DNA from: Diogma glabrata
Lineage: Eukaryota > Arthropoda > Insecta > Diptera > Cylindrotomidae
NCBI GenBank assembly: GCA_963693315.1
Contig: OY856186.1
Coordinates: forward strand, 377,916,656-377,980,655
Length of the DNA: 64,000 nucleotides
Reading direction: 5' to 3'
Shown here piece by piece: positions 39,809 through 64,000 of the stretch. The notes under the pieces were generated by a model. It was not told the origin of the DNA. It saw only the letters and a program-made list of their open reading frames with translations, and searched no databases. Both the position numbers and the translations under genes were made by a program. The first letter of the stretch is position 1. Each line of letters begins with the position of its first letter.

Positions 39809-41557
39809 TTGAAAAAAATAAAAATAATAAATAAATAATTTTTATTTTTTACTGATTTATTATAAGTCGTTTAGACCTTAGTTACCGAAATAATAATGAC
39901 ATTCATAATTTCCAAGGGAATTAATTATAAGAGAGAGTTATGGATTCATAATAGACTTAATTTTTATTATAAATTTTTGTTTTGTTTATTTATTAACAAC
40001 ATTATTTACATAAATCCATAGTAACGAATAATAATACCCTAGCAATACAATTCGAAGTGAAAAATAACTAACTTGTTCAATTAAAACGCAAAATCATGCT
40101 ATCAAAATACTTGATAAAAATAAATGTTTTAGATTAATAAATGTTTTAGGTAGTAAAAAATAAAATTATCTATGAATCACGTGAATTATTAGATGTCAAT
40201 TACCTTGTGAAACTTGCTAACCCTCGGGCCAGAGGCACTCGGGTAGTAAACGTTTCCCTCGGTAATTAAGATCCTTTTAATTCCCTTGATACATAAATAA
40301 CTATTTTGACGCATAAATAATGTTTAATTATTTACCAAACTTTTATTTATAAATCATAACCTAAAACTGTCTAATTTTTTCTACTTTGAAAGCACATGTG
40401 ACACTTTTACAAAATAAAAATTGTTCTTACAGCCTTTTCTTCTCATAATAAAAAATATTTTGCTTGCCAAACGTAATTCGAAAAAAATATCAGTTGATGA
40501 TTTAACCGTGGTTCCGTCTGCACAATGTTATCAAATAATTTGATAATCTCTTATTGACTAAGGAAATTGATTTTTCTGTTATTTTTTTTTCAACAAAATT
40601 TGTATGTAACAAAAATTTCTAGTTTAAATATTTCACCTACCTAAAAATCTTCGGACAAAAGAATATAACTGTTTGCACATGTTATTTATTCTCTCTGTGT
40701 AAGCAAATAGAATCCCTTTGAAAACCTACACCCTTTCATGTTCCAAACTATTGACATAAAAGACTTTTTAATAGCAATCGCTTGAAAATGAATTTTTTTT
40801 TATTGTATTCTCCTAATAAATTACTATAGAAACACTTATAGTAGAAACACTTATCCTAACAAAGAAAAGAAAATATCAAATATTTTATTTTGAAGGATAT
40901 ATGATCTGGATTTTATTTATATTTGCAACAAAATGATAAGGTAAGAAAAACATGAAAATGAGAACATAAATAAATAATCAAAAGAAAAGGTTCTTGTTTC
41001 GAATACTAATTTTTCTGAAACCAAGAACCCATGTTACTAAGGTGCTACTCCTAATGTTCGCTATTTTTATTCTCATATTCTTGTTACTGTCACTTTGTAA
41101 ATAAATCTGGGTTGTCAAAAATTAATGGAACGAGTATTGAAATTTCAATTTATATGGGATTTTAGTCAATCGAAAAATGATTGTTAGAAGTTTGCTCTTT
41201 GATATATGGTTTGGAGTGCCTAGAAGAAAAGATGGTTATCTTAAAAATCGTTATGCTAAACGTTCAACATTAAAATGTTCTTTTGTGTTTGTAATAAGGA
41301 CATTAGGTTATTTTATAGACCCTAATATTATATGCTTAAATGAGTTTTGGAATTTTAGTTACATTTAAACTTATGGTTTAATGTAATCAAATATGGTCAT
41401 ATGATGCTATACCGCCATACAGTTAATGCATTCGTTAAAACCTTTTCAGAGCAGAGCAATGTTACCACTGTTAATGCAGCAGCGATTACAAAATTATGGG
41501 ATACCTAAGATGAGGTGGTGAGAGGGCTTAAGGCATTGGAGCCTAGTGCAAAAAGTA
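39809..41557. other. Intergenic DNA with a hairpin at about 40190-40272
   Basis: CAATTACCTTGTGAAACTTG (about 40198) is mirrored imperfectly by GTAAACGTTTCCCTCGGTAA (about 40246), around a CCCTCGGGCCAGAGGCACTC centre. AAGGGAATTAA (about 39916) is mirrored at about 40279. This is probably the core of another small inverted-repeat element. No gene was seen. Confidence 0.5.
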
Positions 41558-41712
41558 CACTAAAAAAATAAAGGAAATTTTTACAAAATTTTTATAAATA
41601 TACAACCCCTCAATTTTTTTCCTTCAAATCCAAAAATAATTTGTAAATCAAATAAAATTTTTGTTTTTTCAAATAATTCAAGTAATCTACAATATTTTTG
41701 GTAAAATTTGTT
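41558..41712 (-). mobile_element. CACT-ended MITE family, truncated copy
   Basis: It begins CACTAAAAAAATAAAGG, with TTTTTATAAATATACAAC inside. The rest matches, in reverse orientation, the interior of the element at 61008-61247 (CTTCAAATCCAAAAATAATT and CTACAATATTTTTGGTAAA). The other terminal repeat is missing. Confidence 0.7.
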
Positions 41713-43010: not shown

Positions 43011-43199
43011 GCAATATAAAAAATTTGTAAAATTTACTTAATTTTTTTTTAGTGTAGATATCCATGGCTAATATATATTTTAGTCAATAAATTAGATACG
43101 AAGTCAAAAAGTTTTTGGGTACATAAAACAGTTGAGAAGGATTTTACAGTATTGAAAGAGTGTTTAGTAAAGCGTATACTGATGTTTTGAAATACCGCA

Positions 43200-50888: not shown

Positions 50889-51474
50889 GGAGCTATTTCA
50901 CGCAAGTTCAGCATATTTTTGGGAAATTTTGATTTGACCTTTCAATTTTGATTATTTTTTGTTTATAGATAGTCTTTCATAAATAAAAAATACAATTTCT
51001 CTTAGAATTTTTTTTTTCGACCAAGGGTCTTCACAGGGTGCCCCTCAATTTTTTGTTATTTTGTGATGTGAGTGCATTTTGATGAGCGATTGTAGAAAAA
51101 CTACTCAATCGATTTTCATAAATGATATGTCGTTGAATAGGTATTAGAACAAAGTTTTTAAAAATGTACACTGTTAATTTTTTGAAATAATTTTTAACGG
51201 TGTAACATAAGAAAAAAACGGTGTAATTGAACACAAGATGGCGATACACCCTTTTTTTTTAAACTAAATTGAAGCTTATTTTATATCTAACTACTTGTGA
51301 AAGTTTAGGAGATGCGTTATTTTTTGTTTTAAAGATAAAATTCGTTGTGCATATGACTGTCGGGAATCAGTTTTTTTGTTTCTGAAGGAAAATTATAAAA
51401 ATGGCGTTATAAACTAAGAGATTTTTTTTTATGTTAAATATCAAATATTTTATTATTAAATGATCTTTTTAAAA

Positions 51475-52760
51475 TATTATAAAAATGAAGAAAATATGAG
51501 CAATTTCAGCATAAATCCACAAAAGCGCTTATTGCTATGCACATTAAATGAAGCTTATGTGGAGTTTAAAAATAAGTTTCCTGATATGAAAATAGGATTT
51601 ACTAAATTCACGTCCCTTCAACCACAAGAATGTATAAAATTATCTCAATGAGTTCATAATGTGTGCGTGTGTACCATACATCAAAATATGAAACTAATGA
51701 TTCAACACTCTAAGATGTCTTGGATTACTGATGCTGCTTTCCAGAATTATAAAACATTATTTGACTTTGTTTTATGTGGTGAATTTACAGAAGATTGTCA
51801 TACTTTGAAGTGCAATGAATGTTCAAAAAAACTTCAACAACTGGAAGAAAGATTACTAACTGATTTTGATGTTAAAGGAATCCTTCAAGACAGATATCAA
51901 CAATGGATTACCACTGATCGATGCAATTTGGATACTTTAATAGAAACTGTAGAAGAATTTATGAAAAAATTTATTTACCGTTTACAAATTTTGATACCAC
52001 ACAACCTTATAGCAAAACAGCAATCTACATTCATTGAGGAAAAAAAAATTAGAAGCAGGAAGTGCTTTGTTCAAGGGGATTTTTCTGAAAACTACGCCTT
52101 CATAATTCAGGATTCGGTTCAAGGTCATCATTATAATAATTCACAAGCTACTATTCATCCAATTGTCATTTATTTTAAAAGTGCTGCAAGTGAATATATA
52201 CAGCACCGAAGTTTTATACTAATTTCGGATATAAACGATCACAACAGTACTACAGTCCATCTTTTCATTACAAAACTTATTGAATTCATCAGAACGCATA
52301 TAAATTCTAATATTAGGAAAATAATTTAAAACACCGACGGGGCACCTTCTCAATACAAAAATAAACATAACCTAATTAACTTATGCAACCATAAAAAAGA
52401 CTTTAAGGTTGATGCAGAATGGCATTTTCATGCTACCAGCCATGGCAAGGGACCTTGCGATGGAATTGGTGGTACACTGAAGCGTTCTGCACACCGTTAT
52501 AGTACAGGGAGCAGAGATATTATTGAAAAAACAAAAAAACTTTTCGAATAAGCTTTAAAATGGGAATCTATCATGAACTTTGGATACGCCGATAAAAATG
52601 AATATCAATTAACAAAAAAAAAAATTACAAAATCGATATAAAAATGCGATTACTATAAGTGGAACTCAAAAATTTCATTCTATTGTACCATTAGATACTA
52701 AGACAATAAATGCAAAAATGTTTTCCAACTCAGAAGAAACTTTTAGATGTAAAATAAGTA
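51475..52760 (+). pseudogene. Transposase-like protein of the long-TIR element, with in-frame stops
   Basis: A continuous frame with stops runs from about 51475. The N-terminal part has KRLLLCTLNEAYVEFKNKFP and KIGFTKFTSLQPQ, a stop at 51649, then in the same frame VCVCTIHQNMKLM. A cysteine-rich stretch (CNECSKKL) follows, then STDRC-like TTDRCNLDTL. Next is FVQGDFSENYAF (first candidate catalytic aspartate, about 52070), HPIVIYFKSAASEY and HSTTVHLFITKLIEF-like text. After a stop at 52327 the frame continues with TDGAPSQYKNKHN (second aspartate, about 52335) and EWHFHATSHGKGPCDGIGG (about 52418-52470). A third stop follows near 52548, then a frameshift before a C-terminal GTQKFHSIVPLDT (about 52660-52700). 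I recall this protein type as multicopy in cnidarian, fish and arthropod genomes. The three stops and the shift make it inactive. Confidence 0.75.
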
Positions 52761-53230
52761 AATATTTTTTAATAACTATATTTATTTTCTTTAACCTGCA
52801 TATATAATTTGTATGATACTTTAAAAAGTTTATTCAATAATAAAATATTTGTAATTTAATGTTGAAATACAATCTTTTACTTTATGATTCCATAATAACA
52901 TAATACGAACAAAATGGTTCTCCAGTGAAAAGTTCCTAAATAGATTTTGTTATTTATACGGGTTTTTTGTTTGCAGTCGAAACTGTCAAATTATTTTTTA
53001 TAAGAGTGACAAGTGATTACTAAAAGCGACAAATAAACATTTCATTTTTTTATGCCATCTAATACAAAGAAAATAATTGCAGAAGTGTTTTCCTATTCAA
53101 AAGAAACTTCTGTTTGTAAAATAAGTAAATCATTTTCATCAATCGTATTTATTTTATTTATTGTACTACATATATAATTTTTATAATATTTTAAAAAGTT
53201 CATCTAATAATTAAATATTTGATATTTAAC
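52686..53230. repeat. Direct duplication of the transposase 3' end
   Basis: 52686-52870 and about 53050-53230 are alike: the codons around TGTTTTCC(A/T)A(C/T)TCA and AGAAACTT and the following CATATATAATTT untranslated sequence occur twice, about 365 bp apart, inside the element. Confidence 0.8.
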
Positions 53231-53763
53231 ATAAAAAAAAATCTCTTAGTTTATAACGCCATTTTTATAATTTTCCTTCAGAAACAAAAAAACTGATTCC
53301 CGACAGTCATATGCACAACGAATTTTATCTTTAAAACAAAAAATAACGCATCTCCTAAACTTTCACAAGTAGTTAGATATAAAATAAGCTTCATTTAATT
53401 TAAAAAAAAAAAGGTGTAGCGCCATCTTTTCTTCAATTACAAAGTTTTTTTCTTATGTTACACCGTTAAAAATTATTTCAAAAAATTATCAGTGTACATT
53501 TTTAAAAACTTTGTTCTAATACCTATTCAACGACATATCATTTATGAAAATCGAATGAGTAGTTTTTCTACAATCGCTCGTCAAAATGCACTCACATCAC
53601 AAAATAACAAAAAATTGAGGGGCACCCTGCGAAGACCCCTGGTCGAAAAAAAAAATTCTAAGAGAAATTGTATTTTTTATTTATGAAAGACAATCTATAA
53701 ACAAAAAATAATCAAAATTAAAAGGGGTCAAATCAAAACGTTGTTGAATCTTCGTGAAATTGC

Positions 53764-54124
53764 TTAATATTTAAAGTTCTCCATTATTTATCGGGTGTAG
53801 AAAAAATAGCGTATGCAACTCTCATATAAAAGTTATTAATACATGATCGTTGCATAATATACTATTATGCAAAAAATTTAGTACATTCTGTGTCGAAAGC
53901 GCTTTAATAAAGTTTGACGTATAAGATCAAAATAATTTATGTTTGTTTTTTCGGCTGGTAGCTCCAGTTTGACATAATATTCAATGAAGTGAAGTTAGTA
54001 TTCTGAAAAAATTCTGACGCATATCGTGTAAAATATCAAGTATAAATTATAAAGTTATGAATTGAAAAATTTCAACGAAAATTGGTTTTCCATAACTAAA
54101 TTAATTATTGTTGAAATAATTAAT
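53764..54124. other. Intergenic DNA
   Basis: No recognisable feature. Confidence 0.4.
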
Positions 54125-54659
54125 AGTCCCTGGGCCCACGCCGATTTCATTTGATGATTACCACATATTTTATACTTCGTGAGGCTCCTATCCTTGACGA
54201 GTCCGAAAACTTCTGTTCTGTCATTTTCCTCGATTCGGCCGATTTCTTGTTCAGCAAGCTCCGAAAAAGGCCGATTGCTCGCGATCTTGTAAATTTGCTA
54301 CCACATTTTTATTTTTTAACTATGTGGATGGATATTTATTTGTGAACGCGGCGTTAACTTTGTCCGATAAAAATTTGTTTGCTATTGTAGAGTTTGACAA
54401 CCCAAACATGCCAAAATGTTAATTGTTGGACTCGACAATTGCAGACACATTTTCGTCCTAAAACAAATTTCCACCCCCAAGTTAAAAAATAAAATTGTGG
54501 AGCAAGTTTACATGATCGCGAGCAATCGGGCCGAACGAAATTTGGCCGAATCGAGGAAAATGGCCAAGCAAAAGTTTTCAGACTCTTCAAAGACAGGCAC
54601 CACACCAAGTATAAAATAAGTGGTAATCATCAAATGAAATCGGCGTAGGCCTAGGGGCT
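54125..54659. mobile_element. Fold-back element, 535 bp, arms about 230 bp
   Basis: The left end AGTCCCTGGGCCCACGCCGA is mirrored on the right as AGCCCCTAGGCCTACGCCGA. The arms remain alike through GATTTCATTTGATGATTACC, TTTTCCTCGATTCGGCC and CGATTGCTCGCGATC. AAT flanks both sides and may be a 3-bp target duplication. The ORFs on both strands (54151-54345, 54354-54619) mirror each other and are consequences of the inverted repeat. Confidence 0.85.
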
Positions 54660-56020
54660 AATGATGATACTGAAAAAAAAAATAAAAGTTTATAAAGTCT
54701 TGATTATAAAACAGACAATATAAAACTGAATCCGAATAAATTTGAATTTTCTCTAATCATCAATATTGGCATAAAAAATGTTCACAGTTAATTTTGTCGC
54801 ATTCAATACATTAAAATAAAAATATTTGCACAACAATAACATCATGAAAATTTTTAATCCAATTTCCTTAAACAAACAAACAAAGAAAGTTTTTCCATAA
54901 ATAATTGTTTAAACCGGAAATCAAAAATAAAAACTTACTTAAAATTCGGAAAACATGCAGAGACTTTTTCTTTCTTCTAACACTTTGCCCTCTCCGTGTT
55001 TTTTTTTATTTTTGTTTGAAAGTGTTATTATATTTGTCTCTCTTGTTCTGTAATTTTATTGCATAAAAAGACTTTTTAGTGCCAACAAGAAGTTCGATTT
55101 GTTTATTTTATATTCAATAAACTTGTTTTGTATTGGCATATTGTCACTAAAGTTGTCTAGAGCAGTGCGAGTATTTGTTTCAAAGAAAAGAACTATCTGT
55201 TTTCCTTATGTTGCAGTTCGTCTTAACTCTTAGTTGTAGGGTTGTACAATATATCAGAAATGTAGTCTTACGACCTAGGTCTTGTGTCACTAAAAATTAA
55301 GTGTCTTATTTAATGTAGATCATACAATAGCAGACCACAATTTAATACCAGTGTCACAGTATTAATATCATAAACTCCCAGAATAATAGTCTAAAAATGG
55401 AAAACAAAGCGCTAACTAAATTTTGATGGGCTGAATTACTGTCTTTTTGCATCCACCATCCAATCTATAGATCGAAAACATAAATAATAATTTTTACATA
55501 AATAATGTTAAACTGATATACTTATAAGACTTTGGTTGGGTAATGTCTTTCCTTTTACTTTGGTATTAGCATCGCTATTGCCATACGACATGGTTCTGAA
55601 ATAGGAACAAGTCACACATTTCGCCTGAAGATTTCCATGAAGTGCTACGAAGCTGTTACCCCGTAAAAATCATTGGTTTAAACACCTGTCTTATACGAAA
55701 ATCAATGTAACCAATACTAATGCATCCAACCGTTTCTTTATACTCAGTTGCTTTCCACACTGATCGTTTTTAATTTTGCTATTTCATTTTATTATACTGT
55801 TGGCTCATGAAATTTTCTTTATAATTACTTGCGCTTTCTAAAATGAAAACAGTCTCATGATTATACTCAAAAAGAGTTTATGAATTAATTTAAATACACT
55901 AAATATTTTGGGATAATCCAAACTTTTGATTAAATTATTTTCAAATGTTTTTATGTGATTGGTGAAATTAAAAATAAAATTTATATAGTTTAATTTAAAG
56001 TTTAATAGCCAAATTTAGTT
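54660..56020. other. Intergenic AT-rich DNA
   Basis: No gene recognised. Confidence 0.4.
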
Positions 56021-56450
56021 AAAGTACACTCAGAAGTTTATGTTATTTTCTATTATGCACAGCTGTGTATAATCGGTTTTTGCATGCTGTTTATACAAAA
56101 GTAACTATATTCTAAAATCATTTGACATGAATATACATCAGTTATGGTTTAAACACAATGCTCAATTTTGCATAGATATTGGATACTAAATATAATGCAA
56201 AATGTGTATATTGAGTAGAACAAAATTAATGTACTACTCATAACACCATTTGGGATTTATAAATATTCAAAATACATGGTCTAAGTAATATACATTTTTT
56301 GTATAAATCATTGATACTAATTATAATGTAATATGTGCATATATTTTAATGTATTTTATCTAACCTTATATTTTCAAACTTAAATGTTATAAAATAAATT
56401 TTGATACAAATCATTATATCAATATATGTATACATTCAGAGTGGTTTTAC
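56021..56450. repeat. Left subterminal repeats of the two-gene transposon (inferred)
   Basis: This region downstream of the transposase stop contains repeated motifs. GATATTGGATACTAAATATA at about 56177 and ATCATTGATACTAATTATAA at about 56305 are diverged copies 127 bp apart. TATGCA, TGTGTATA and TGCATAT words are frequent. Similar words occur in 60366-60673 and in 63640-63990 in the opposite orientation. CACTCAGAAGTTTATG at about 56031 could be the outer end, since CACTA-type elements start CACT; that is only a guess without the matching right end. Confidence 0.4.
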
Positions 56451-56494
56451 CTCACAAAGAACAAAACACCATAGTTATATTTTTTAGTAATTCG

Positions 56495-56500
56495 TTTATT
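56495..56500 (-). terminator. Polyadenylation signal of the transposase gene
   Basis: AATAAA on the minus strand, 27 bp beyond the stop codon. Confidence 0.6.
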
Positions 56501-56527
56501 ATATTCAATTCAAAATTTTAAGTCGAA

Positions 56528-58894
56528 TTAACAATTTTTAGTTCTTATGAACGTTCCTTCTTTGAGATCGTGCTTTGTAGTTGGTAGCATGTTAAAATCT
56601 TCATAACCGCTACATATAATAGATGGATTTTCTGGGAGCTGTAGCATATAAGCTTGGTAGTGGGTTGAAAAGTTTATCGTCTGATAACAATTGAGGATGA
56701 ACAAAACTGAACTTTTGAAAGCAAAACACTTTTTAATTTCACAAAATACCCCATCCTTTGTTTGGATCATCATTCCGGGTGAGTATGATATATTGTTTAT
56801 TTTGATCCACTTATGTTGTGTGTATTCCTTGTGGGCAAAAACATGGAGATGCTCTAATTCAGGGAAGGGTAAATAACATGGTGGTCCTGTGTTGATTGAG
56901 ACATGCAATCCCTTTTGAGATAAAATACGATATGCAAATGTTAGTTGCTGCTTTGTCATTAGCGATAGGGGAAGATTTACTCTTGATGTTGTATTTTTTG
57001 AGTATTGTTTTAATTCCCTATGCTTACCTTCTAATCTCATACACCACACTTGCGACAGTGGTCCAATTTTAGAAATAATCATTGGATAATGGATCATAAA
57101 GTGATGTTTAGGTTTCAATTTTTGTTTGAAAAATGAAACGAAAAATGTGTGATGATTTTTAATCAGAACTTTTAAATCATTAATTTGATTGGTGGTTATT
57201 GACTTTGATGTTATAATGTCCAGAATTTGCACAAAGGTTCTAACGAACTTCCACACAGGATCAGTTTTTGGGACCAACTCTCCAATAAATAATGTTAAAA
57301 AGTGGAAAATTCCTCGCATTTCCGATGCAGACGTGTTGAATTTGTCTTTCTGTATATGGTCAATTTGAATCGGCTGTGAAATATTCGAAATATCGGAGGG
57401 TCCGTAGTTAAATAAACTTTTTCTATTGTTGAATTCATCCAAGGAAAACAACTGCTTCTCAAAAATAAAATAATTTAAAATTTGCGAGAGGTTGTAGTGG
57501 CACACTCCTTCGTACAAGTCGTGCATTATGTCTACAGACATATTATTTGTTACACTGAAGGATGGTATATAACTGAATACGCAACTACTTTTTACTCCGG
57601 TTTCCGAAACATTATCCAATTGGACATCATATTCATATTCGTTTTGGGTTCGAAGAAGAGATACTCTTTCAGTACACATCGTATGCAGGTCATTTCGATG
57701 TACTTTGCAGAAACGACAGACAAAATTTGCAACGAAAGACTTTGTAAGTCCCAAGATTTCGTGAATTCCGAGATTGTCACCAAGAATTAATCCCAGGACA
57801 AAATAAACATGAACTATTCTTCCATCTATGTTAAGACGAATCCCTTCCTTTTTTAGTATAACGCATTCTTTAACCAAATTTATGTATGTTGTTTTGTCAC
57901 CATACACTTTGTCTTTAGATTTGAACAGCTGTACTACCAATATATTCTCTAATAGAGAAATATATGGTTGCGGGATAGTGGGAAATAAGACATAAGTAGC
58001 TGCTATTGAGTTAAGCTTTTTATGTGATCCAAGTGGGTTATCAGGCTCCCAATCGTCGAAATAAAGGTGGAAAGGTATCACAGTTTTTTCGCCAAAATTA
58101 GCAATTTTTTGCTTCCAGTAATCGCCTTGAATAAAGTGTGAAAACGTATTAGAATCGAGCAGATTCGCAGCATACATCAATGATGTTGACAAAACATTGG
58201 GTAGTTCAAAGAAATGTTTGAACAGTGACATTAAGGGGACATGGACACCATGGGTTTCATGAGAATGGTACTGCACTGTGAGTTTCTTTTGGATAGGTTT
58301 AACACTCCTCTCTATTGCAAATTTTTGAGGGATGATGAACATGTTGTTTTTCACTAAATCATGTTTCAGTTTTTCCTCATCACCATAATTCAATAGGACA
58401 CTTTTAAGCCTGTCAAACTTTTTTACATTTTCTTCATGGTTATCCCCACTTAAATCCAAAACTGCCTCAAAGGGAGAAACAATCAATTCTGCAATTTTCT
58501 TTGATATTAATTGAACCTGCTTTCGATTAAAAGATGAAACGCTGTGTAAGTCTAGCAGTAATTTCTTAACCATATCATTAATCTGCGTAGACCAGTGGGC
58601 ATCGTGTGAAGTGCTTTGCATTTCCATAACTGGTACAGACTCCAATCTTGGCGCGTCAAACTGAGCGTTGAGACTATCTGGTGATCGACTGGCGCGCTTA
58701 ATATTATCCGCTTGGGAAAATGCTATGGAATCACTGTGTACTGATTTTATATGTTTGGTCAGGTCCCGGCCTAAGGGGAAAATCCGATGACAAGAGTCTT
58801 CACCACATTTCCAAATTGATTCATGCTCTTTTCTTATATGGGTTATTAACTGTCTCACTTCTTTGAACTTGAGGGAGCAATGAAAACAATTCAT
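56528..58894 (-). CDS. C2H2 zinc-finger CACTA/EnSpm-like DDE transposase, intact ORF
   Basis: About 788 aa from the chosen start (58894). The frame stays open upstream to 58948, but TTTTTACAG ending at 58916 looks like a splice acceptor, so the upstream codons are probably intronic and a 5' non-coding exon lies further up. Residues 3-24 (C3, C6, H19, H24) and 30-53 (C30, C35, H48, H53) form two C2H2 fingers, probably for binding element ends. A linker follows, then the core: YFDDWEPDNPLGSH (D280/D281), GLILGDNLGIHEILG, NFVCRFCKVH (C393, C396), SVDIMHDLYEGV (D455) and MRLEGKHRELK (E622, E627). These fit an RNase H-fold D-D-E catalytic site with the D-x-M-H box seen in CACTA/CMC transposases; the assignment of each acidic residue is inferred. 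It faces the SAM gene head to head across 2.5 kb. No frameshift or stop was seen. A domesticated host gene is the alternative. Confidence 0.8.
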   Translation of the reverse strand: MNCFHCSLKFKEVRQLITHIRKEHESIWKCGEDSCHRIFPLGRDLTKHIKSVHSDSIAFSQADNIKRASRSPDSLNAQFDAPRLESVPVMEMQSTSHDAHWSTQINDMVKKLLLDLHSVSSFNRKQVQLISKKIAELIVSPFEAVLDLSGDNHEENVKKFDRLKSVLLNYGDEEKLKHDLVKNNMFIIPQKFAIERSVKPIQKKLTVQYHSHETHGVHVPLMSLFKHFFELPNVLSTSLMYAANLLDSNTFSHFIQGDYWKQKIANFGEKTVIPFHLYFDDWEPDNPLGSHKKLNSIAATYVLFPTIPQPYISLLENILVVQLFKSKDKVYGDKTTYINLVKECVILKKEGIRLNIDGRIVHVYFVLGLILGDNLGIHEILGLTKSFVANFVCRFCKVHRNDLHTMCTERVSLLRTQNEYEYDVQLDNVSETGVKSSCVFSYIPSFSVTNNMSVDIMHDLYEGVCHYNLSQILNYFIFEKQLFSLDEFNNRKSLFNYGPSDISNISQPIQIDHIQKDKFNTSASEMRGIFHFLTLFIGELVPKTDPVWKFVRTFVQILDIITSKSITTNQINDLKVLIKNHHTFFVSFFKQKLKPKHHFMIHYPMIISKIGPLSQVWCMRLEGKHRELKQYSKNTTSRVNLPLSLMTKQQLTFAYRILSQKGLHVSINTGPPCYLPFPELEHLHVFAHKEYTQHKWIKINNISYSPGMMIQTKDGVFCEIKKCFAFKSSVLFILNCYQTINFSTHYQAYMLQLPENPSIICSGYEDFNMLPTTKHDLKEGTFIRTKNC

Positions 58895-59440
58895 GGCTAT
58901 GTAATTGGCATAGATCTGTAAAAATATACACATAAAAAGTAATTTCATAGTTATATTGTTGGGTTTGGCATACCAAATAGTTCTTCGCTAGTATGAAAAG
59001 GGGTGCCACAAACTTGAATTCACTCGAGTTACTGTTAAAAAAAATAAAAGTTTTTTAATATTATAATAGAAACATTAAACATATCAAAAATTAAATGCAA
59101 TATATAAATTATTTTTTTAACTACTAACTTGAGAAATCGTCAATATTTCCTCGAATGCCCCATTGAGAAGTAATTTTTCTCAAGCTAGGTCAATAATAAT
59201 AACAAACAATTACCTAGGTTAATAATGACAAATTTTCTTTTATTTTTGATTGAAATGAACAAAAAAACACAAACAAATAATAATTGCATTGCTTTGTTTC
59301 GATTTATTTTTATGAAACTAAACTTCCAGGCTACTTGATATTTTAAGATATTATAAAAATGAAATGGAAAATGACTAATATAAATATCTAATGAAAGTAA
59401 ATATTATAATTAGTGTAAGCAGTTAAAAAAAATTCTATAT
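58895..59440. promoter_or_regulatory. 5' side of the transposase gene: intron acceptor and upstream region
   Basis: The acceptor lies at 58916-58918 on the minus strand, with a T-rich tract before it. The 5' exon and promoter must be further right but cannot be placed by eye. GTTGAGAAG-like and CATTGAGAAG words around 59163 recall the hairpin at 59443. Confidence 0.4.
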
Positions 59441-59442
59441 AT

Positions 59443-59548
59443 ACCTCGGTTGAGAAGACTAATATAGACCTCGAACATTATATCCCTCGGCGCTACGCGC
59501 CTCAGGATCTAAAAGTTCTCGGTCAATAATAGCCTACTTCTCAACCTT
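59443..59548. repeat. Imperfect hairpin element with GGCGCTACGCGCC centre
   Basis: CCTCGGTTGAGAAG on the left and CTTCTCAACCTT on the right, with further pairing of GACCTCGAAC to GTTCTCGGTC. The centre is GC-rich (CTCGGCGCTACGCGCCTC). It resembles the centre of a small inverted-repeat transposon. Confidence 0.6.
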
Positions 59549-59909
59549 GTTATATAATGTACTATTATATTATTAGCAACATAATTTTTTAAATATTCAT
59601 ATTATTCAGCAAATAACAATATTAATAGTAAATAAGTACCTATGTTGTCGACCAAAACGTAATCTATATTCAAAAAATGCAAGCAAATATAAAGGTTATT
59701 TTGCACCACTGCAAACTCCTAAATAAATTTTGTTAACTAAGTTTACAATTTCAATAATATAATTGTTTATTTTTGATATGTAGTTATATAAATGATCAAA
59801 ATCGATCTTCCTTGTAGAAACTTGAAAAAGAAAATTTTAAAAACAAGAAGTAAAAAATTTGAGTAAATACAGAACTTACTTAAATTGTCTTTTTATTTTT
59901 TGTGTCTAG

Positions 59910-60326
59910 AGGCTCGTTGACACCAAGTTAGTTTACAATCTGCTTGGCGGCGAGTTTAGAAGCAGGCGTGTTCGCTTATTAGATAGTGCCGATAACACAC
60001 AAAATGGTTTGCTTGCTCAAAAGTAAACAAGCTTACTTGGAAAATTATCTTACAAAGTTTGGTGATTCACACTAAAAAGTAAAACTTTACAATCATACTA
60101 CTAGCAACTACGATTACTTACGGCTAGTTTACCAGCCAACAATCGAACAAGCCAACAATCGCACAAGCCAGTGAGAGATTGTTTACATGAGAGAGAGATT
60201 GCTTACAATCATTCAATCATTCATGAGATTGTTTACAATCTGCTAGTTGGACAGTGAACATGTTGGCACTGTGCTAATTTACAATCTGGATAGTAGATTG
60301 TAAACTATCTTAGTGTCAACGAGGCT
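59910..60326. mobile_element. MITE, 417 bp, TIR about 32 bp
   Basis: The left end GGCTCGTTGACACCAAGTTA continues GTTTACAATCT. The right end is the complement of GCCTCGTTGACACTAAGATA plus GTTTACAATCT. The interior holds repeated ATTGTTTACAATC palindromes and GCCAACAATCG(A/C)ACAA twice. No ORF was seen. It lies in the intergenic region between the two divergent genes. Confidence 0.85.
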
Positions 60327-60365
60327 TAAAACCTGAAATCTGGACATAAAATATGATGAAATCTT

Positions 60366-60673
60366 TGTATAGGTCATTTTTGCATGTTGAGTATGCCCTG
60401 TGTATACATAGCATCCACAAAAAATCAGAATGTCTAATTAAAAATCACAATTGCATATCCATAATACACAAAATAAATTATGGATTTTCTTGCATAATGT
60501 TTATGCCATACATGTTTGTTATGTAGGTCTTTTTTGCATGTTGAGTATGTACTGTGAATTCAAAGTATCCACAAAATAATTCGAAATGTCTAATTATAAT
60601 CCCAAATTGCATATCCATAATACACAAAATAAATTATGGATATTCTTGCATTATGATTATGCCAAACATGGTA
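60366..60673. repeat. 154-bp tandem repeat, two copies, each with a hairpin
   Basis: TTTTGCATGTTGAGTATG recurs 154 bp apart (about 60378 and 60532). Each copy ends with the inverted pair ATCCATAAT...ATTATGGAT (60457-60485 and about 60611-60641). The copies are about 90 percent alike. Word content matches the subterminal regions of the transposon. Confidence 0.85.
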
Positions 60674-60804
60674 TTTTTTGTGGTGTCAGTGGTATCGCCG
60701 ATTTTTATATTATAAGGTCATATAAACGGATGAACATCCAAAATTATATATATATAAATTACATCCCATACACGAAAGACAGCAAGAAAATAACAAACAC
60801 ATAT

Positions 60805-60940
<136 letters not shown>

Positions 60941-61007
60941 CATACACATATATATAATGTAAATACGTAACGTACTGCAATTTTGAAAATAAAGAAAAAC
61001 GGCACTG

Positions 61008-61247
61008 CACTAAAAAAAAACTAAGTAAATTTTACAAACTTTTTATAAATATACAACTCACAATTTTTTTTGTAAGTTTACCAAAAATATTGTAGAATAC
61101 CTAAAAAATTATTTGAATAAACCAAAAATTTATTTGATGTATAAATTATTTTTGGATTTGAAGGAAAAAAATGGTAGTTTTATCATTTATTTTGTGTGTT
61201 GTATATTTATAAAAATTCTGTAAACGGTACTTTTATTTTTTTGAGTG
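61008..61247 (+). mobile_element. CACT-ended MITE, 240 bp
   Basis: The left end CACTAAAAAAAAACTAAGTA and the right end (complement) CACTCAAAAAAATAAAAGTA are similar. The arms continue through TTTTTATAAATATACAAC on both sides, about 55 bp in all. A truncated relative lies at 41558 in the opposite orientation. TG occurs just outside both ends. It sits about 210 bp upstream of the SAM gene start codon. Confidence 0.8.
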
Positions 61248-61456
61248 TGACTCTCAGATATTCATTTGTTTAGATACATAACGCACACGTGTTTTTTTTC
61301 ATAATATATCAAGCATTCGTCGCTAATAGATCGATATACTTTGCGCGTGTGAATTATTTTGCATTTGAGACAAACATTAAATTCGTAAGGCACATTTAAA
61401 ATAAATATTTATAAGTTAAACTTTGTTTTCGTATTTTGAAGTATACGGTCTTAGAA

Positions 61457-63404
61457 ATGTATACTCAAGCAGATATTTGGTGCGAGGACTCTGTTGTGGA
61501 ACAGCTTCTTCGTTATTTTAATATTACAAATGAGAAATCAATTGCAAGATTCAAAGGTAAGTAAATATGTTTTTATACAATATCATTATATTTAACTAAT
61601 ACTCGACAATATCACACTTAACCTAATTTGTTTAATATTTTCAGAAGAAAAGATTGAATATTCGTGGTTTGAACATTTGACCGAACGAGAATTGGAAATT
61701 CTGCTTCCTACAATCCGAGAGCGGGTACAATTTCGGATAGGACTAGCTGCCTTCAAAAAACTAAACAAAGATATCGAGATCATTTCCACAGTCGATGAAA
61801 AATCAAAATCGGAAATATCGTTTTTGGTAAGTTTGTTTTAAAACTTGTGCTCTAACTCAATTTGAACTAAACGAAAATATATGGAAAAGGATTTGAAAAA
61901 GCTGTTGGACAAGACCGCACGCGGAAAAATGATAATGGACGGTTATCAGAATAATGGGATCCTCAGCTCAGAGTCACGCGTTCGGCTAGTGGACATAGTT
62001 GTTGACGAAGTATTCCGATGCTCATACCCGAAAGGAAACTCGACCATGAAAATTCTCACTGAAAAAATTCGCCAGTTATTTCCAAATGAGGAAGAGGTAA
62101 TGATTTTCCTTATATCAACATATAAATCGAGATTAAATTAACTATTTATATTTTTAGAAAATATATTACATTGCCCCGAAAACGCTGTCATCAAATCAGA
62201 CACATGCTAAAGGTATTTTAGCGAACAAGATACGAAATACGGCATCTAATTTTCGAGTTGGCAAAAAGGATAAGATCGCTGATACGGATGATCTATTTTC
62301 AGGTGTGTTTATGAATTTCATTATTTTAAAATATGCTTTTATTAATTAAATTTCTAATTGAGCAGATGTCTTCGCTGACATGGATGAAAGCGAGGACTTA
62401 CTCTGGCTTAAAATAAATACAGGACCCTGGGAAAAACTGTGCGAGAAATGGGAGGCTACTATTGATGCTCGACAACAGAAGTACTTCGGTAAATCAGTCG
62501 AAGAAATTATGAGCCAATGGCCCGTCCTTCGTGAGCCAAAAGCATTTGAATTAGTAAGTGGCTTTATCTAATTTTTATTTATAAAAAAACATATTATTTT
62601 ACTTTGAATTTAAATATTTATTTTTGTGTTTCAGATATCCATTGGTTTCAATTTCTCATATCCGGCGGCAGGCTTGCTCTTGGTCAAAAATTGGAAAGAT
62701 TTTGTAACCAATCTTACTGAGGTCCTTAGCGTGAAATTGAAGTCAAAAGCACACAAAGAACTACTGCATTCGCTGTGTAGTATAACCGATGTAACGAGTG
62801 ATCAGTATTATTATAAAACTACAATAAATAAAACCATTTATTAATACTTTTTCAATCATTTCATAGATTCTGCCGTTCTCAACACGTTAAAGTTGCTGTG
62901 CATTTCGATGCCAGCGGCTCAACGAACTCACGATGAAAGTGGAGGCAAATATTGGATTCCGAACAGCGAAGAATCTTTCAGGGGTATGGTGACAGTTTGC
63001 AAGGTGAGTTTGTTTGAAAATATACTTAAAAAAATATAATTTCATGAACAATATTACTATATTTATAGACCGAAGCTGAAGTCGAAACCCAATTGGACTT
63101 GCATCGATCTTCCAAAGCCAAGTTTAAGAAGACACTCCAACCCATTATTTTCTTCGTTGAAGACACGTCTAAAATCATCACCGCAGTGAATAACGCGAAA
63201 TTTTTGTCGGCCAATTTGTTGACGGCTGTTGACAATGTGTTCAAAGTTTATATGGTGCTCAATGCTGAGTACAATTGGGAGTCCCAGCACATTTGGGAAT
63301 TTATTCAACAATATTTGTTCGAAATTACTTCGAAATTTGACAAAAATTCTAAAAATATGTTGGCGCTCATAGCTGAATTGAAAAGCAAGAAGACAGCAGT
63401 TTAG
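61457..63404 (+). CDS. SAM-domain partner protein of the transposon, eight-exon intact gene
   Basis: Exons: 61457-61556, 61645-61826, 61890-62096, 62158-62302, 62366-62553, 62635-62779 (or -62797), 62867-63003, 63069-63404. Introns are 60-90 bp with GT...AG ends and phases that join without a shift, giving about 479 aa (485 with the longer exon 6). The intron-2 acceptor (GGAAAAG) is weak, as is the exon-6 donor. Residues about 12-76 look like a sterile alpha motif: RFKEEKIEYSWFEHLTERE, then LLPTIRERVQFRIGLAAFKK. Exon 3 has SRVRLVDIVVDEVF and KIRQLFPNEEE. The last exon holds FKVYMVLNAEYNWESQHIWE, like the C terminus of multicopy SAM-bearing proteins I recall from fish and invertebrates. Its job is unknown; SAM domains oligomerise, so a transpososome or DNA-binding partner is plausible. 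Start chosen as the first ATG of the frame. No stop or shift was seen. Confidence 0.75.
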
Positions 63405-63430
63405 CATACTAAACTGCTGTATAAACATGT

Positions 63431-63456
63431 AATAAATGAAGTAAATATGAAATAAA
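63431..63456 (+). terminator. Polyadenylation signals of the SAM gene
   Basis: AATAAA at 63431-63436 and again at 63451-63456, 27 and 47 bp beyond the stop codon. Confidence 0.65.
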
Positions 63457-63469
63457 GAATTTTAAAATA

Positions 63470-64000
63470 TAAATGTGTCAAAGATATTGAATTTGGACTA
63501 ATTAATAATAAAATGGCATAGAGAAAATCACAACTTATTGCATAATAGGCAAACCCAAATATATTAGAAGTTAGCTATAATAAAGCATTCTCTCTAGGAA
63601 AATATTTATGTAATAATTAGTCACAATAGGTATACTCATCAGACAAAAATGTATTTAATACCAATTATTGAGTATTTTATACCAATTATTGGTATTATTA
63701 CAAATGGCACATGTCATAACAATTATGCCCGTGAACTATCTGATACGCAAATTATGTTCTATTTACTATGTACATATGTGCTAACGAGTATGTCCATAGT
63801 GAATACATGTTATATTTGGCTGCATAATAATTAGGTAATATTAAGTGCTTATTTATTAAATACAGAAATGAATGTTCATTATGCCATACTTTGTATATAC
63901 TCCTTAATTCATTTCCTAAATTTGGTATATTATAGTGATATTTTTGTCTTTCTACGTTAAGCAACATGTTCTTATTTATAGTCTAATGTGTATATTGTTT
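63470..64000. other. Right subterminal region, end outside the window
   Basis: AT-rich DNA with words resembling the left subterminal part in inverted orientation (e.g. GGCATAATGAACATTCATTT on the minus strand, TGTGTATATTG at the window edge, and ACCAATTATTG twice at 63660-63690). No outer terminal repeat matching the left side is seen before 64000. Confidence 0.35.

Follow-up and report, generated by a model that had tools for sequence, protein, structure and literature searches.

A CACTA/EnSpm-type transposase gene and a divergent SAM-type gene as the probable gene complement of a DNA transposon in Diogma glabrata

At the right-hand end of a 64,000-nucleotide stretch of the Diogma glabrata genome (contig OY856186.1, positions 377,916,656 to 377,980,655; the whole stretch is hereafter called the window), two open genes lie head to head: a transposase gene on the minus strand, here named TP, and a multi-exon gene with a SAM-like N-terminus on the plus strand, ORF2. 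We propose that TP and ORF2 probably make up the gene set of a DNA transposon of CACTA/EnSpm type, with ORF2 as the element's own accessory protein. The evidence comes from the conserved residues and predicted fold of TP, from insect gene models in which an ORF2 homologue is joined to the same kind of transposase, and from motifs shared by the non-coding DNA around the two genes. We infer from these that both genes belong to one element at this locus, that the element is mobile, and what part ORF2 plays in it. The coding features are:

56531..58894, minus strand: TP, a 788-aa transposase with two C2H2 fingers, a RAG1-like DDE core and a BAH-like C-terminal domain
56495..56500, minus strand: poly(A) signal AATAAA of TP, just beyond the stop
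61457..61556, plus strand: ORF2 exon 1, first half of the SAM domain
61645..61826, plus strand: ORF2 exon 2, second half of the SAM domain
61890..62096, plus strand: ORF2 exon 3
62158..62302, plus strand: ORF2 exon 4
62366..62553, plus strand: ORF2 exon 5, the top-scoring exon against homologues
62635..62797, plus strand: ORF2 exon 6, this end being preferred to 62779
62867..63003, plus strand: ORF2 exon 7
63069..63404, plus strand: ORF2 exon 8 with the stop
63431..63436, plus strand: poly(A) signal AATAAA of ORF2, just beyond the stop

The TP frame runs from stop to stop over 819 codons (minus strand, 56528..58987). Its third in-frame ATG (58894) gives the 788-aa form, the two earlier ones giving 806 and 801 aa, and most of the aligned relatives shown start at or near an MxCF methionine, matching the 788-aa form. 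A protein database search matched 219 proteins to TP (E ≤ 1e-3; best 6.9e-248). The listing shows 120 of them, and all counts on TP relatives given below cover these 120. The named relatives among the matches listed are from insects, for example Photinus, Cydia and Acyrthosiphon. In viral contigs, a TP relative was found neither with the single sequence nor with the 52-row alignment described below, nor was a relative of ORF2.

The alignment comprises the window TP and 51 relatives picked from the 120 listed. D280, D373, C393, C396, D455, H458, H598, H602 and E622 and, in the fingers, H24, C30, C35 and H48 are invariant in 52/52 rows, and a C(2)C and H(3–4)H pattern between the second D and the E of the DDE triad is likewise present in every row. 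Particular aspartates among these would have a catalytic role. D455 and H458, kept throughout, belong to a DxMH box, which is a mark of the EnSpm/CACTA family. Pfam adds weaker signals: PF02992 (Transposase_21) matches three of the 52 aligned members at E ≤ 1 (best 9.3e-5), and a relative outside the alignment, P0107, matches PF18759 (Plavaka) at 7.4e-5 and PF02992 at 0.0018, both under the cut-off. The Pfam scan of the window TP itself gave no PF02992 or Plavaka match, and the zinc-finger matches in the scan are of C2H2 type. In PMC12730594, the C(2)C/H(3–4)H pattern is described as defining EnSpm and tying it to Transib and RAG1. Judged by its motifs, TP is a CACTA/EnSpm-type transposase and the family call is correct.

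A RAG1-like fold would be expected of TP because of this link between EnSpm, Transib and RAG1, and the predicted model (mean pLDDT, the predicted local distance difference test, 88.4), on which the fold comparison rests, gives the catalytic core (residues 100–661) a RAG1-type fold. Identity of TP to the RAG1/Transib group is about 10%, and the spacing of the zinc ligands is alike. Residues 665–783 form a BAH-like domain by structure only, in the same predicted model; a BAH sequence profile gave no match to the TP tail.

ORF2 is open across eight exons from 61457 to 63404 on the plus strand, with GT-AG introns of 61–88 nt. Exon 6 has two frame-keeping donors, at 62779 (479 aa) and 62797 (485 aa), of which the latter is more likely the true end since the 485-aa form aligns to the Ceutorhynchus homologue with fewer gaps. 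That homologue, P0107 of the weevil Ceutorhynchus assimilis, and P0082 of the butterfly Brenthis ino are gene models of more than 1,100 aa in which an ORF2 homologue, the first 345 residues of P0107 and the first 480 of P0082, is followed by a TP. In a search of the 120 listed proteins, ORF2 matches P0107 at 29% identity over 289 aa (E 1.9e-25) and P0082 at 24% identity over 344 aa (E 1.5e-19). A hidden Markov model (HMM) of the ORF2 family, built from the P0082 and P0107 parts only and searched against the spliced ORF2 and 1,453 six-frame open reading frames of the window, finds the spliced ORF2 at E 5.2e-37. Among the unspliced frames it finds exon 5 at 1.1e-13, exon 8 at 9.3e-8 and exon 3 at 1.3e-3; the frames of exons 6 (0.11) and 7 (2.3) are weak, and the best frame outside the gene reaches 0.67. 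Both gene models skip the zinc fingers, and that of P0107 also skips most of the SAM domain, for which reason they look like adjacent same-strand genes merged by the annotation program; the adjacency would be real, the fusion perhaps not. The homology to these models supports the view that ORF2 belongs to a transposon-linked family.

The SAM assignment draws on relatives. Scanned alone, the P0082 N-terminus reaches 24.4 bits against SAM_1 (cut-off 23); within the whole protein it reaches 19.3 bits. When the PDB was searched with a five-row profile of the ORF2-family N-terminus (ORF2 included), ANKS6 (5.4e-4), tir-1 (2.5e-3) and BICC1 (4.4e-3) came out on top, with coiled-coil chains lower in the list, from 0.07 up. 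The window's own ORF2 gave no Pfam match at E ≤ 10, neither to SAM nor in the part outside it; its sole PDB match, LSm7 at E 0.21, is not useful. The predicted fold of the ORF2 half of P0082 is mostly below pLDDT 50 and yields nothing usable apart from an N-terminal five-helix pattern. Five assembly-derived TPs (P0061, P0062, P0083, P0103 and P0105) carry the second SAM half in frame ahead of their zinc fingers. An HMM of this half, made from these five and P0082 without ORF2, ranks the ORF2 exon-2 frame first of 1,454 window sequences with a modest E value (0.035) and finds no further half-SAM TPs among the 120 listed (next E 2). In P0061, P0062 and P0103 the similarity sets in sharply where ORF2 has its intron 1, which fits a first SAM half encoded in an exon further upstream, its probable location. 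The SAM label for ORF2 thus appears to hold by homology, and SAM and TP are found as neighbours and, in part, as a single polypeptide.

Part of the original prediction is borne out by these results: an open 788-aa zinc-finger transposase (the third ATG of the 819-codon frame, with 219 database matches), its D-D-E site with a DxMH box (kept in 52/52 rows), its CACTA/EnSpm (CMC) kinship (motifs, weak Pfam matches of relatives and predicted fold), the head-to-head arrangement, and a poly(A) signal after each stop. The predicted SAM-type gene was found open with its eight exons and GT-AG introns, its length moving from 479 to, more likely, 485 aa; its SAM identity stands by homology and not by a Pfam match of its own. 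Co-location in two other insects and the half-SAM/TP proteins support the view that the SAM gene and the transposase belong together. The same two observations speak against ORF2 being a resident SAM-type host gene that lies beside a transposase by chance: gene models from two insect orders link ORF2 homologues to this kind of TP, and another group of TPs carries a fused SAM half. Eight well-spliced exons and the position of ORF2, which is not enclosed by any terminus found, would suit a host gene, an explanation that we nevertheless consider very unlikely.

The distribution of the association was followed on a midpoint-rooted FastTree phylogeny of 108 TPs (the window TP and those 107 of the 120 listed with at least 600 aa). 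The window TP groups with P0001–P0005 (support 0.996). The half-SAM group, P0082 and P0107 all fall on the far side of the root, P0107 in a separate clade of 11 (support 0.885). Since the SAM-linked TPs and the window TP occupy different parts of the tree, the association of SAM/ORF2 with TP would thus be either old or re-established within the family; about three cases are well apart from one another.

The ends of the putative element are less clear than its genes. The relevant non-coding features, in which MITE denotes a miniature inverted-repeat transposable element, are:

56027..56480: CACTCAGAAG, a candidate left terminus, plus a subterminal region in which the motif occurs as ATTATGC, TTTTTGCATG and TGTGTATA
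59910..60326: MITE-like inverted repeat between the genes, its arms some 35 bp long with 90.6% identity across 32 bp
60365..60680: two imperfect tandem copies of about 155 bp, rich in the subterminal motif
60687..60691: CAGTG followed by GTA, an alternative right end pairing with 56027 (terminal inverted repeat alike at 6/12), which would leave ORF2 outside
61008..61247: MITE-like repeat CACTAAAAAAA...TTTTTTTGAGTG, 0.2 kb ahead of ORF2
63480..64000: right-hand region with the subterminal motif, the terminus being beyond the window or unrecognised

A motif is common to three non-coding stretches, left (56027–56480), middle (60340–60720) and right (63480–64000). ATTATGC occurs in seven copies in 56027–64000 versus six in the remaining 56 kb, and the window's five best matches to a 20-mer derived from the middle stretch (≤4 mismatches) all fall in these stretches, with three in the middle one. 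Judged against 600 random pairs, the sharing of rarity-weighted 7-mers gives p values of 0.015 (left–right), 0.0017 (left–middle) and 0.0017 (middle–right), and that of rarity-weighted 8-mers 0.005, 0.023 and 0 of 600, respectively. This sharing favours one DNA family across the 8 kb, without proving one element.

Right ends were sought as inverted repeats between 55.9–56.5 kb and 59–64 kb, and as CACT/AGTG pairs whose 2–4 bp flanks are identical; from 54 kb onward there are 42 such pairs. The best pair overall, 61008–61247, is the MITE-like repeat and was rejected as element ends. The sequence CACTCAG starts at 56027 and fits as a candidate left end, and it has two weak partners only, at 60691 (GTA flank, 6/12 bases) and 59415 (TA flank, 6/12). 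The terminal repeat predicted near 56031 has a left-hand candidate at 56027 and, within the window, no matching right-hand repeat. The stronger claim of one intact autonomous element is not upheld: a matching right terminus, a proven target duplication and a second copy were not found, and because TP and ORF2 have a long TA microsatellite and both MITE-like repeats between them, "intact" is valid for the coding frames only. The same repeats, together with the right end not found in the window, could point to a dead or domesticated pair whose ends are lost and whose genes are remnants or host-recruited. Both frames are open and the catalytic residues are kept, which argues the other way; we regard this state, which is compatible with the other readings, as somewhat unlikely.

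The pairing with 60691 raises an alternative in which two adjacent elements of one family are present, a TP-only element at 56027–60691 (4,665 bp, GTA flanks) and an ORF2 element extending past 64000. Its CACT...AGTG pair has the 3-bp GTA on both sides, motif-rich DNA reaches 60680, and PMC12730594 counts CAC..GTG ends and 3-bp duplications among the marks of EnSpm. However, the terminal repeats are alike at only 6/12 positions, four of which are forced, and a single GTA flank match is unsurprising given that AGTG occurs 27 times between 56027 and the window's right-hand edge. Moreover, the motif A copies at 56077 and 60377 point the same way, where two ends should carry inverted copies, though the right-hand copies are mixed (63630 minus, 63868 plus). 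We consider two elements unlikely.

Besides the GTA-flanked pair, several further observations weigh against a single two-gene element. Between the end of ORF2 and the edge of the window, 56027 has no good inverted partner, and unweighted k-mer counts are not significant (0.09–0.13 for 7-mers, 0.16–0.20 for 8-mers), nor are 6-mers. A direct protein-database search for ORF2 relatives found none, and with the second-half-SAM HMM the spliced ORF2 comes second at an E of just 0.41, the next sequence being at 1.4. TP and ORF2 are divergent in the window, whereas the P0082 and P0107 models require the same strand. SAM or ORF2 sequence lies in the same protein for just seven of the 120 listed TPs (two joined models, five half-SAM); most of the 120 come from short assembly contigs. 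P0082 and the half-SAM group fall in one 14-member clade (support 0.96), so that the independent SAM links are fewer than seven. A search of prokaryote genome contigs gave a single TP locus (L001, 2158–4465), and the approximately 2.2 kb upstream of its TP ATG showed no ORF2/SAM match.

L001 encodes a distant TP (29% identity in the best segment) on a 4.5-kb contig filed under an Aquifex metagenome-assembled genome, and TTAGG-type repeats suggest that this contig is an arthropod contaminant. Elsewhere in the window, relatives of the 61008–61247 repeat occur at about 41554–41705 and 43015–43054. Together they make up a small family of AT-rich inverted repeats that have CACTAAAAAAA ends; the 41.5-kb copy has ends reading TACACT...AGTGTA. 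No clear target duplication was seen by eye at the 59910–60326 repeat. A 2.8-kb element at 50938–53725 has 549-bp inverted arms, 96% alike, around a broken frame (51460–52551) that is presumably transposase-like; six-frame open reading frames gave no TP relative there. A foldback of about 550 bp lies at 54116–54668 (130-bp arms, 83% alike). The claim that all other elements in the window are broken was spot-checked only.

Returning to a single element with two genes, we envisage a mechanism in which (i) TP, as the catalytic subunit, would use its N-terminal zinc fingers and RAG1/Transib-like DDE core to pair and cut the transposon ends, acting as a dimer on both ends by analogy with RAG1 and Transib; (ii) the flanks would form hairpins, as the TP fold suggests; and (iii) ORF2, encoded on the 5' side of TP and combining a SAM domain with a further part of no known family, would most likely self-associate via SAM and recruit to the excision complex either TP or the subterminal DNA with its many motif copies. 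ORF2 would then be the best candidate for the TNPA-like job of plant CACTA elements, with SAM serving self-association or contact with TP. In maize Spm, according to PMC2613891 and PMC1636069, TNPA binds subterminal repeats and is required along with TNPD; RAG1-RAG2 offers a precedent for one transposon supplying both a transposase and its companion gene (PMC4411706). A bolder version, in which the pair forms a two-subunit RAG1-RAG2-like recombinase of a RAG1-fold TP with a BAH-like, chromatin-reader-like tail and an end-pairing SAM-polymer scaffold, a SAM exon having moved between the partners, seems doubtful to us.

Animal CACTA-type elements seem poorly characterised, and a conserved SAM-type partner is a testable candidate for their missing accessory factor. 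The half-SAM/TP proteins directly predict that TP and ORF2 work in one complex. Combined with a gene partner, the RAG1-like fold would provide a second natural case of how a transposase gains a companion subunit, the question that underlies how V(D)J recombination arose. The titles, term counts and abstract openings searched announce no SAM-type or BAH-type CACTA partner, though one paper, on zebrafish Asz1 (PMC11760641), contains both "EnSpm" and "SAM domain"; Repbase was outside their scope and absence in print is unproven.

Compared with known systems, the pair resembles EnSpm/CACTA (CMC or CMCT, including Plavaka) in the order D, D, C(2)C, H(3–4)H, E, in the weak Tnp2/Plavaka Pfam matches of TP relatives, in the CAC at the candidate left end and in having a second gene beside the transposase; it differs in its SAM-type partner, which matched no known CACTA accessory protein in the searches made, and in the BAH-like tail assigned by structure. 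SmTRC1 and other animal CACTA elements (TRC) share the animal CACTA type, Transposase_21 kinship and more than one protein, but TRC ends start with CCC and have 2-bp duplications, and TRC products arise via alternative splicing, according to PMC1636069. Among SAM proteins, ANKS6, tir-1/SARM1 and BICC1 are the best PDB matches of the ORF2-family N-terminal profile, whereas the remainder of ORF2 is without a Pfam match at E ≤ 10. ORF2 may also resemble "SAMD3-like" proteins, for which a literature search gave no relevant title. Unlike RAG2, ORF2 is SAM-like and not Kelch-PHD, although no dedicated Kelch search was made; unlike RAG1, TP has C2H2 fingers at its N-terminus, and Chapa/RING is absent among its Pfam matches, with no dedicated Chapa search. 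With RAG1, Transib and the RAG1-RAG2 pair, the two genes share the predicted core fold, the zinc-ligand spacing and a second gene adjoining the transposase.

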